Shown here in pieces: positions 43,581-46,918 of a DNA stretch of 64,000 bases; position 1 is the stretch's first letter; each line of letters begins with the position of its first letter. The notes beneath the pieces were generated by a model that saw only the letters and a program-made list of their open reading frames with translations, ran no database searches and was not told where the DNA came from. A program made the translations under genes and the position numbers. The DNA comes from an uncultured Pelagibacteraceae bacterium (GTDB lineage Bacteria > Pseudomonadota > Alphaproteobacteria > Pelagibacterales > Pelagibacteraceae): contig CACHFM010000001.1 of assembly GCA_902579105.1 (NCBI GenBank), forward strand, positions 62,001 through 126,000, given 5' to 3'.

Positions 43581-43906
43581 TGACTTATATTGTTAATGAC
43601 AAATGTATTAAATGTAAATTAACTGACTGTGTTGATGTGTGCCCAGTTGATTGCTTTTATGAAGGCAAAAATATGCTTGTAATTAAACCCGATGAGTGTA
43701 TAGATTGTGGCGTTTGCGAACCAGAATGTCCGGTTGATGCGATTACAGCAGATACAGAGCCTGGAAGTGAAAAATGGTTAGAGATCAATACGAAATATTC
43801 AGAGATCTGGCCGAATATAAGTGAGAAAAAAGATCCTCCAGCGGATCATGAGAAATTTAAAAATGAAGAAAATAAGTACGAAAAATATTTTAAAGAAAAT
43901 CTTTAA
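43580..43906 (+). CDS. fdxA: 7Fe ferredoxin FdxA-like
   Basis: [47 protein letters not shown]. Confidence 0.95.
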
Positions 43907-44750
43907 AAGTAAAAATAAAAAAAAAGTTACTAAGCCTAAAACTTCAAAAATAAAAAAAATTACTAAGTCTAAAATTTCAAAAATAAAAAAAGTTAGTAAG
44001 TCTAAAATTTCAAAAATAAAAAAGGTTAATACTAAAAAAATTAAAAAGAAAGCTAAAGTAAATGAAGTAAAAATTGAAACTAAAATAGATAATTTAAGAA
44101 TTCCTAAAAATAATGAAATTAAACCTGAAATTAAAAAGGTAAAAAAACAAGAAACTGCGAAAAAAGAATATAAAATTAAAGATCACGTTGTTTATCCAAA
44201 ACATGGAGTAGGTATAATTAAAGAATTCAAAAAAATTGTAATAGGTGGCATAGATGTAGAATGTTACATTATTGATATTAAGAAAGAAAAATTAGAATTA
44301 AAATTTCCAGTAAACAAACAATCATTACTAAGACCTTTAGCAACTATTAACCAAATAAATAAATGTGTTTCTATTCTTAAAGGCAAACCAAAAATAAAAA
44401 GATCTATGTGGAGTAGAAGAGCCCAAGAATATGAGGCTAAAATTTCATCTGGAAAAATTTATGAATTAGCTGAAGTTGTAAGAGATTTAAATAAAGGTGA
44501 TGATATTATGGTTGATCAATCCTATAGTGAAAGACAATTATTTGAAAAGGCATATGAAAGAATTTTAACTGAATTTCAAGTTGTGCTTGATTTATCATTG
44601 GAAGATTCACAAAAAAAATTAGATAAGGCCCTAAAAAGAAATTTAGATAAACAATCTAAAACTTTAGCTGATACACCGAAAGTTCAAACTACAGATTTGC
44701 CAGAAGAAGAGCCTGTTTCTGAAACAGAAGAAGAGCCTTTAGAGGAATAA
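43863..44750 (+). CDS. carD: CarD family transcriptional regulator with Lys-rich repetitive N-terminal extension
   Basis: [35 protein letters not shown] and [28 protein letters not shown]; start at 43863 (MKKIST) favoured over 43821, but uncertain. Confidence 0.9.
43926..44024 (+). repeat. Three tandem copies of a 33-bp coding repeat in carD
   Basis: Encodes [11 protein letters not shown] / [11 protein letters not shown] / [11 protein letters not shown]; nucleotide units nearly identical. Confidence 0.9.
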
Positions 44751-44757
44751 AAAAAAA

Positions 44758-44792
44758 CGCCTCACATACAAATTGTAATGAGAGGCGCTTTT
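44758..44792. terminator. Bidirectional intrinsic terminator between carD and the basic mini-ORF
   Basis: CGCCTCACATACAAATTGTAATGAGAGGCGCTTTT with an A-run upstream that becomes a T-run on the other strand. Confidence 0.8.
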
Positions 44793-44811: not shown

Positions 44812-44895
44812 CTATCTTCTTCTTCTTTTCTTAGCCTTTTTCTTTTTAGCTTTTTTCTTAGTTTTCTTTGCAGCTTTTTTTCTTCTTTTAGCCAT
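44812..44895 (-). CDS. 27-aa extremely basic Lys/Arg/Ala peptide
   Basis: Read by hand on the minus strand: MAKRRKKAAKKTKKKAKKKKAKKRRRR*; followed by the terminator hairpin at 44758-44792; absent from the ORF track because of length. Confidence 0.7.
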   Translation of the reverse strand: MAKRRKKAAKKTKKKAKKKKAKKRRRR

Positions 44896-45095
44896 CTTTA
44901 GCTCCATGTTAAAGTTAAACGAATCAATTGATTCGTTATTAATATATTTTTATTTTTTTATATAAGTTATGTCAATTCTTTAATTAAATTGAAAAATTAT
45001 TAAAAAATTTTTTTTTATTTTTTATTTTTTTTTAATTTTATTTAATTAATTTAGTTAATGTTTATGCGGATAATATACAACTTAAAAAATATAAT

Positions 45096-46826
45096 TTAAT
45101 AAAGTTTTTCCAATTGATTTTTATATTTTTCTATAACTTTTTTTCTTTTTACTTTCATTGTTGGTGTCATTAAACCATTTTCTATAGAAAAATTTTCGTC
45201 TATTAATTGAATTTTTTTTATTTTTTCTAACAAAGTTAATTTTTTATTAATTTTATCAATTACATTATTAATTTTTTCTTTTTCTTTTAAAAAATCTTTA
45301 CTTGGTACTATTAATGCAACCAAATAATTTTTTTTATCTCCATAAACCATACATTGATCAATTTCTGGTTCATTTGTAATCATATTTTCAATTTTAGCTG
45401 GTGAAATATTGTCTCCTCCTGCGCTTACAATAATATCTTTTTTCCTGTCAGTAATTTTTAAATAACCATCTTCTGGATCTATTTCTCCTATATCACCTGT
45501 ATGAAGCCATCCATCAATAATTACTTTGTCGGTTTCTTCTTTTTTGTTCCAATATCCCAACATTACATTTTCACCTTTAACTAAAATTTCTCCATCATTA
45601 GCAATTTTTACTTTGTTTCCTTTAAAAGGAGGACCAACAGTTTCTACTTTTATCTTGTGTATAGGATTACAACTTACTACTGGGGATGTTTCAGTTAAAC
45701 CATAACCTTGAAGTGTAGGTAGTCCTACAGAATTCAAAAATTCTCCAATTTCTTTATCTAAAGCACCTCCACCAGAAACAAAAGCTTTTAAATTTCCACC
45801 AAACTGCTTTTTTATTTTTTTTCTAACTAATGCTTCAACTATTAAATTTAGTAATTTTTCAGAAAATGTCATTTTTTGATTTAACAATTTTTTTTTACCC
45901 AATCGAAGAGTTGCATGAATTAATTTAGCTTTAAAACCTGTTTGTTTTTTTAGGTTAATATTAATTTTATTATAAAGATTTTGATAAAATCTTGGTACAG
46001 CTGTCATAATTGTAGGTTTTGCTTCAGATATATTTTCTAAAAGTTTTTCAATTTTTTCAGCATAGAAAACTTTTGCTCCAACAGCTATCTGAGCAAATTG
46101 TACACTATGTTCATAGGAATGAGAAAGAGGAAGCCAAGTTAAAAATACTGGTCTTGAATTAAATAATGGTTTCATAATTTCACAAGCTCCTACAAGATTA
46201 TTTAAAATTCCACCATGACTCAAAATTACTCCTTTAGGATTCCCACCAGTTCCTGAAGTATAAATTATACAAGCAGGTGATGTTCTTTTTAATTTATTAT
46301 TTTGGATTTTATCTTCTTCTAATAAAATATTTTTTAATATTGAACTAAAATCCAAATATTTTTCTTTGTCATTTAAATTTAAATTGTTAATTACATTATT
46401 AACTTCATCTAATGTAATAACTTTTTTAATAAAATGTTTTTCATTAATAGTATTACTTAATTTTTTTAGCATTTCATTATTTGAAACTATAACTAAACTA
46501 GGCTCACAATCTTCAATTAAGTACTTATAATCCTCTTCTGTATATGTTGTATAAGCAGGTACCGTAATTCCACCTGATAACATGATTGCTAAATCAGAAA
46601 TAAACCATTCAGGTCTATTCTCTGATACTAAAAGACATCTATCGCCTTCTTTTATGTTTTCTTTTATTGTTTTTGATAGTTTTAAAATATTTTTTTGTGT
46701 TTCTTCCCATGTATATGTTTTTTTATTATTTGGATTTAACCATTCCAAAAAAATACTTTTTTTATTTTGTTTATCTACTTGATAAGAAAATAATTCAATT
46801 AAACTGTTTAAACTATCTAAATTCAT
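45096..46826 (-). CDS. Long-chain acyl-CoA synthetase (AMP-binding)
   Basis: CIIYTSGTGGNPKGVILSHGG, LQGYGLTETSPVVSCNP, GWLHTGDIGEIDPEDGYLKITDRKKDIIVSAGGDNISP. Confidence 0.92.
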   Translation of the reverse strand: MNLDSLNSLIELFSYQVDKQNKKSIFLEWLNPNNKKTYTWEETQKNILKLSKTIKENIKEGDRCLLVSENRPEWFISDLAIMLSGGITVPAYTTYTEEDYKYLIEDCEPSLVIVSNNEMLKKLSNTINEKHFIKKVITLDEVNNVINNLNLNDKEKYLDFSSILKNILLEEDKIQNNKLKRTSPACIIYTSGTGGNPKGVILSHGGILNNLVGACEIMKPLFNSRPVFLTWLPLSHSYEHSVQFAQIAVGAKVFYAEKIEKLLENISEAKPTIMTAVPRFYQNLYNKININLKKQTGFKAKLIHATLRLGKKKLLNQKMTFSEKLLNLIVEALVRKKIKKQFGGNLKAFVSGGGALDKEIGEFLNSVGLPTLQGYGLTETSPVVSCNPIHKIKVETVGPPFKGNKVKIANDGEILVKGENVMLGYWNKKEETDKVIIDGWLHTGDIGEIDPEDGYLKITDRKKDIIVSAGGDNISPAKIENMITNEPEIDQCMVYGDKKNYLVALIVPSKDFLKEKEKINNVIDKINKKLTLLEKIKKIQLIDENFSIENGLMTPTMKVKRKKVIEKYKNQLEKLY

Positions 46827-46833
46827 AATCTTT

Positions 46834-46918
46834 TGGTGGGCGAAGAGAGAATCGAACTCTCACTTCTTGCGAAACACGATTTTGAGTCGTGCGCGTCTAC
46901 CAGTTCCGCCATTCGCCC
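46834..46918 (-). tRNA. tRNA-Leu (anticodon CAA)
   Basis: Reverse complement GGGCGAATGGCGGAACTGGTAGACGCGCACGACTCAAAATCGTG...GAGAGTTCGATTCTCTCTTCGCCCACCA. Confidence 0.94.

Follow-up and report, generated by a model that had tools for sequence, protein, structure and literature searches.

A minus-strand reading frame of 27 codons in 64,000 nt of DNA from an uncultured SAR11 bacterium (the window) is almost certainly a real gene, probably for a minimal histone H1-like polycation, which in the genus Pelagibacter would be repressed by a trans-acting antisense small RNA of the family RF01814 (rhtB sRNA). The host belongs to SAR11 (Pelagibacteraceae), and the same locus is present in named Pelagibacter records. 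SAR11 are the most abundant bacteria of the ocean, with few regulators and a streamlined genome; despite this streamlining, their genomes retain a tiny gene that appears to be served by a dedicated promoter, a hairpin, a ribosome-binding site and a terminator. An earlier note on the same DNA described the peptide and missed its regulatory side, namely a 5' hairpin and a translation start that is exactly antisense to RF01814; the latter finding is new here. No earlier report of such a control region was found in the searched literature.

In the proposed scheme, a short mRNA would be transcribed from the gene's own promoter, carrying a 5'-terminal hairpin and ending at a terminator. Its product, a mini H1-like polycation, would coat or compact nucleic acid without sequence specificity (DNA first; RNA or polyphosphate possible). 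In Pelagibacter, the apical loop of RF01814, AUCUUUAGCUCCC, would pair with the Shine-Dalgarno/start region GGGAGCUAAAGAU, and through this pairing the translation of the mini-protein mRNA would be repressed. If the pairing is true, it provides the first target for RF01814, an sRNA family without a target since 2009, and it means that bacteria have placed an H1-like protein under sRNA control at least twice. The features of the locus are collected in Table 1.

Table 1. Features of the mini-protein locus in the window (positions in nt; position 1 is the first letter of the window)
Feature	Position	Strand	Remarks
CarD-family transcription factor gene carD, convergent neighbour, synteny anchor	43863..44750	+	PF21095/PF02559
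Predicted intrinsic terminator, hairpin + U-tract	44753..44792	-	-18.6 kcal/mol, z -6.5; conserved in orthologues
H1-like Lys/Arg/Ala mini-protein gene, 27 codons	44812..44895	-	ATG 44895, TAG 44812
Translation initiation region GGAGCUAAAGAUGGCUAA	44888..44905	-	18 nt perfectly complementary to the RF01814 loop of its own genome
5'-terminal hairpin AACGAATC-AATT-GATTCGTT	44918..44937	-	-8.2 kcal/mol, z -4.3
-10-like TAAAAAT, A-rich	44946..44952	-	genus-conserved (alignment)
-35 box TTGACA	44970..44975	-	in orthologues of both families
AMP-binding long-chain acyl-CoA ligase-like gene, upstream neighbour, synteny anchor	45096..46826	-	PF00501

The frame translates exactly to MAKRRKKAAKKTKKKAKKKKAKKRRRR* and, after the initiator M, the protein is made solely of K, R, A and T, just as the earlier note had described it. 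The window holds one ORF of 20–60 aa in which K+R reach 70% or more; 40 dinucleotide shuffles of the 64 kb yielded none. A second in-frame ATG lies 12 nt upstream, at 44907, and arises from the window's own ATGGAGC; relatives carry AGGGAGC and no ATG at this site, so position 44895 is taken as the start.

Protein-profile searches fail for this gene, probably from composition bias, and homologues were therefore found by synteny, with carD as the anchor for other genera and for the second family of the order. The same neighbours, an acyl-CoA-ligase-like gene and a convergent carD, flank the gene in all 10 examined genera of the order; outside the order, no K-rich gene adjoins carD at 28 loci taken from other parts of the class. 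By DNA search, about 30 genomes of the genus carry the locus; all their complete copies are intact ORFs, and indels come only in multiples of three. Scanning with the start-site pattern gave 120 Pelagibacteraceae copies, which were chosen through the common motif itself; the pattern matches in three genomes of another genus are orthologues. In total, 171 sequences were assembled (105 distinct ORF DNAs, 67 peptides), encoding proteins of 21–50 aa in the window's family and 40–91 aa in the second family.

The substitution pattern points to a coding frame: pN/pS is 0.15 in frame, vs 4.2 and 0.39 in the shifted frames. Synonymous choice among Lys and Ala codons also keeps A-runs short. The longest A-run averages 7.2, against 10.5 expected, across the 105 ORFs, and 91 of them are individually below the 5% level, although these ORFs are related and hence not independent. 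AAG makes up 29% of the Lys codons in the gene; its share is 10% among the ORFs of the window and 11% in ribosomal genes, so a bias shared by highly expressed genes does not account for the preference. The short A-runs are most simply read as a sign that a translated frame is under selection against slippage. Conservation of the frame in relatives, which the earlier note had named beforehand as the test that could overturn its claim, extends over 10 genera and 171 sequences, so that the claim was not refuted. An order-wide SAR11 gene is, on this evidence, almost certainly real.

The predicted mRNA begins with a conserved structure. The distance from TTGAC to CGAATC is 38–42 nt (mode 40) in nearly all sequences of both families, so the CGAATC hairpin would begin at the predicted transcript start. 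Its left arm, RCGAATC, is invariant and contains a GANTC site. The right arm differs by genus (GATTCG, GATTTG, or another arm such as TTTAAGTGA) and the loop changes in length between genera. An RNA structure is favoured because the hairpin always forms although the right arm varies. A dimeric-repressor operator in place of an RNA hairpin was considered and is disfavoured: the CGAATC-GATTCG spacing is 4–6 nt, and other genera pair with different right arms. The surroundings, described in the earlier note as low-complexity A/T, are indeed A/T-rich, but they are far from featureless, with promoter, conserved 5' hairpin and ribosome-binding site. The strong hairpin with a T-run downstream is likewise real; to call it the gene's own terminator went too far, as it is probably common to the mini-protein gene and carD, because it directly follows the carD stop (44750) and lies between two convergent genes. 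In leaders of the second family (L176–L186), a conserved AACCTCTAACTAAACCC-AAAT-GGGGGGAGAT could sequester the Shine-Dalgarno site.

The composition of the protein places it near bacterial H1-like lysine-rich proteins of the Hc2/AlgP-tail kind. The 58 short peptides consist almost entirely of K/R/A/T/P, with S or G rare, and the short forms carry a charge of +15 to +29 across 21–41 residues. Second-family orthologues (40–91 aa) are H1-like 'KKAAPKKKRKAAKRKPAKKK' proteins, e.g. MEELKVIFAKARKKAKKKAAPKKKRKAAKRKPAKKK..., with KKAAPKKK/KRKPAKK(K) H1-tail repeats, and beyond the N-terminus they lack acidic residues; the H1-like composition proposed in the earlier note is thus well founded. The K/A/P-rich low-complexity composition is shared with the Hc2/AlgP-tail kind, and so is length variation through in-frame gain or loss of repeats (21–91 aa). 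No Pfam, NCBIfam or PHROGs model matches the mini-protein; members of 27, 50 and 85 aa reach no Pfam/NCBIfam family at the curated cut-off, where HMMER bias correction also suppresses such sequences, and no solved-structure chain matches the 27-mer (E up to 10). The earlier note expected ORF callers with length cutoffs to miss the gene; the family libraries do miss it. Standard proteomics would not detect the product, since trypsin destroys a K/R/A/T protein.

Sequence-independent binding of nucleic acid is favoured because the long orthologues have K/A/P H1 repeats, the short forms are near-pure polycations, repeat number varies, and no solved structure or curated family matches. Low-complexity proteins may look alike without common function. 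H1-like nucleic-acid binding by the mini-protein is nonetheless likely, with DNA as the likeliest partner and RNA or polyphosphate as possible ones.

About 1250 marine metagenome sequences underlie the 2009 description of RF01814 as a motif without known function, possibly a terminator or regulator (PMC2704228). It has been known only as an orphan motif, and the mini-protein mRNA is the target proposed here. The element of the window's own genome (G000:C15:3927-4007) scores 77.2 bits, and scores across genomes are 77–88 bits, above the covariance-model cut-off of 55. The Rfam structure gives it an apical loop of 13 nt, and this loop is exactly the reverse complement of GGGAGCUAAAGAU, which runs from the Shine-Dalgarno site to the start codon of the mini-protein mRNA. 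The Shine-Dalgarno/start sequence GGGAGCUAAAGAUG is frozen in the genus Pelagibacter, and the invariant RF01814 loop, encoded elsewhere in the same genomes, is its exact reverse complement. The window reads UGGAGC at the start region, and its own 18-nt match starts one base later.

Among 142 family genomes searched for the start-site motif, 59 of the 114 that belong to the genus show two sites, both with at most one mismatch; the reversed-pattern control hit 0 genomes. The variants CUAAAAAUG and CUGAAGAUG were met in this search. In the window's own genome, the second site (G000:C15:3953-3973) is the RF01814 loop on the opposite strand, and the predicted sRNA strand is the CUUAGCCAUC strand. 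The second site was also considered as a paralogue with a MAKKDY peptide; this was rejected, the peptide not being conserved and the opposite strand being RF01814 (Rfam). Among 27 RF01814 elements, most of which were picked up by the common motif, a 20-nt loop is identical, the stem shows compensatory changes (TT/AA, AT/TT, TA/TA), and about half of the elements have T-tracts after the stem, on the sRNA strand only. One genome that at first seemed to lack the sRNA (G068) does carry RF01814, with a single change at the edge and compensation in the stem. Just upstream of RF01814, a conserved AATGCATTTTTTTT...TGATATATTAT block resembles an sRNA promoter (L233 2330-2430; equivalents in L242-L261). 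A viral origin was rejected: the lone viral contig with the start pattern holds an unrelated ORF, and the sRNA loop occurs in no viral contig.

Across 27 relatives, the start site shows no variation from -10 to +3, the single deviation, at -11, being the window itself; codon 2 is variable, and mean conservation at the ferredoxin start of these genomes is 0.65. The predicted duplex reaches -33.7 kcal/mol in the window's own genome; for 1163 other candidate starts (476 kb), the best value is -27.0 and the mean -9.4, and first-ATG controls in the window give -15.8 at best. With the 13-nt loop, the value is -18.9 at the start site and -18.0 at one other start, in a relative, so further RF01814 targets are possible. 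The genome examined from the nearest genus (G105, 1.06 Mb scanned) has no RF01814-like element, the sRNA-flanking genes lying 26 nt apart with nothing between, and its start site differs (GGGAGAUAAG). The core is invariant in both loop and target, without a compensated partner change, and one edge position follows in 2 genomes. MPK-type genomes have one codon-2 mismatch in the extended pairing, outside the apical loop, and no matching change in the sRNA. The loop is complementary to the target's ribosome-binding site, as in a trans-acting antisense sRNA-mRNA pair, and RF01814 is likely to pair with the mini-protein mRNA. That the ribosome-binding site is the exact antisense of the sRNA suggests that this RNA switches the gene off.

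The SAR11 arrangement resembles HctA-IhtA in design only; neither membership nor common descent is claimed. In Chlamydia, the trans-encoded sRNA IhtA represses translation of the H1-like HctA (Hc1), and one IhtA loop matches the first 6 nt of the hctA ORF (PMC3469542). Both systems combine an H1-like protein with a trans-encoded sRNA, one loop of which is complementary to the start of the mRNA; repression is shown in Chlamydia, and in SAR11 it is proposed. HctA is larger and has an N-terminal dimerisation domain, unlike the SAR11 mini-protein, and the 6-nt IhtA match at the ORF start compares with 13–18 nt over Shine-Dalgarno site and AUG in SAR11. SAR11 is not known to have a developmental cycle, unlike Chlamydia. 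The bacterial lysine-rich H1-like proteins Hc2 (PMC2848022) and AlgP (PMC9239181) share with the SAR11 proteins K/A/P(R,T) repeats, a length that varies by repeat number, and a basic part without acidic residues. They measure 165–352 aa, vs 21–50 aa in one SAR11 family and 40–91 aa in the other; the SAR11 proteins, unlike them, match no library model and have conserved synteny with carD.

GANTC, present in the hairpin's left arm, is the CcrM site. The window's genome encodes a GcrA homologue (119.6 bits) and an N6_N4 methylase, and SAR11 carries CcrM (PMC3973325). The window holds 232 GANTC sites where 238 are expected, so it shows no notable depletion. Coupling of the gene to GcrA/CcrM through the hairpin site is only a lead. 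In a wider and rather doubtful version, control would have two layers: the GANTC (GcrA/CcrM) site at the transcript start would couple the mini-histone to replication, and Pelagibacter RF01814 would block the start codon, the whole forming an independently evolved counterpart of HctA-IhtA.

Frame conservation essentially refutes the view that the ORF arose by chance from A-rich sequence over a non-coding RNA whose hairpins are the real feature: the region is A/T-rich and the codons are simple, but indels are only in-frame, pN/pS is low, codon choice limits A-runs, and orthologues of up to 91 aa keep the same synteny. It is distinctly improbable that the product is a supernumerary ribosomal mini-protein, neutralising rRNA, and not a nucleoid protein. 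The ribosomal mini-proteins bTHX, bL37 and bS22 (20–45 aa, very basic) are similar in size and charge, and the predicted promoter, Shine-Dalgarno site and short dedicated mRNA would suit such a role. However, their sequences are fixed, whereas the SAR11 protein runs from 21 to 91 aa with repeat number and has few fixed residues, and such variation in the repeats speaks against a protein that fills one fixed pocket of the ribosome; in addition, no solved chain matches, the neighbours are not ribosomal genes, and Ala and Lys codon usage differs from that of ribosomal genes. There is also little probability that the partner is polyphosphate or RNA, which would make the protein an AlgP-like condensing polycation and not a chromosome binder. 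AlgP, an H1-like KPAA-repeat protein, does associate with polyP granules (PMC9239181), and nothing obvious in a pure polycation would make it specific for DNA, but polyP genes were not seen linked at the locus.

As for the 14–20 nt common to the start site and RF01814, it is unlikely that they form an element of other purpose, such as an rhtB attenuator or a shared protein-binding site. RF01814 immediately precedes rhtB, shares its strand and may end in a T-tract, in keeping with its description as a possible terminator or regulator (PMC2704228). Against this, the invariant apical loop covers exactly the stretch from Shine-Dalgarno site to the AU of AUG, in antisense; moreover, element and frozen start site co-occur in one genus, and in the nearest genus the element is absent and the site different. 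Both points favour sRNA-mRNA pairing.

Several minor observations concern the neighbourhood and other proteins. A FecR-like protein in several Pelagibacter genomes (L158 111-1085; also L159-L162; 'GTLGSRGTEFQT' stretch) has an H1-like C-terminal tail of 100–150 residues with KKATKKKA/KKPKKK. A tRNA gene (46837-46918 of the window, minus strand, 58.5 bits) lies upstream of the AMP-ligase gene. SAR11 CarD bears a Lys-rich N-terminal tail of about 100 residues (43863-44170 of the window) ahead of its RNA-polymerase-interaction domain.
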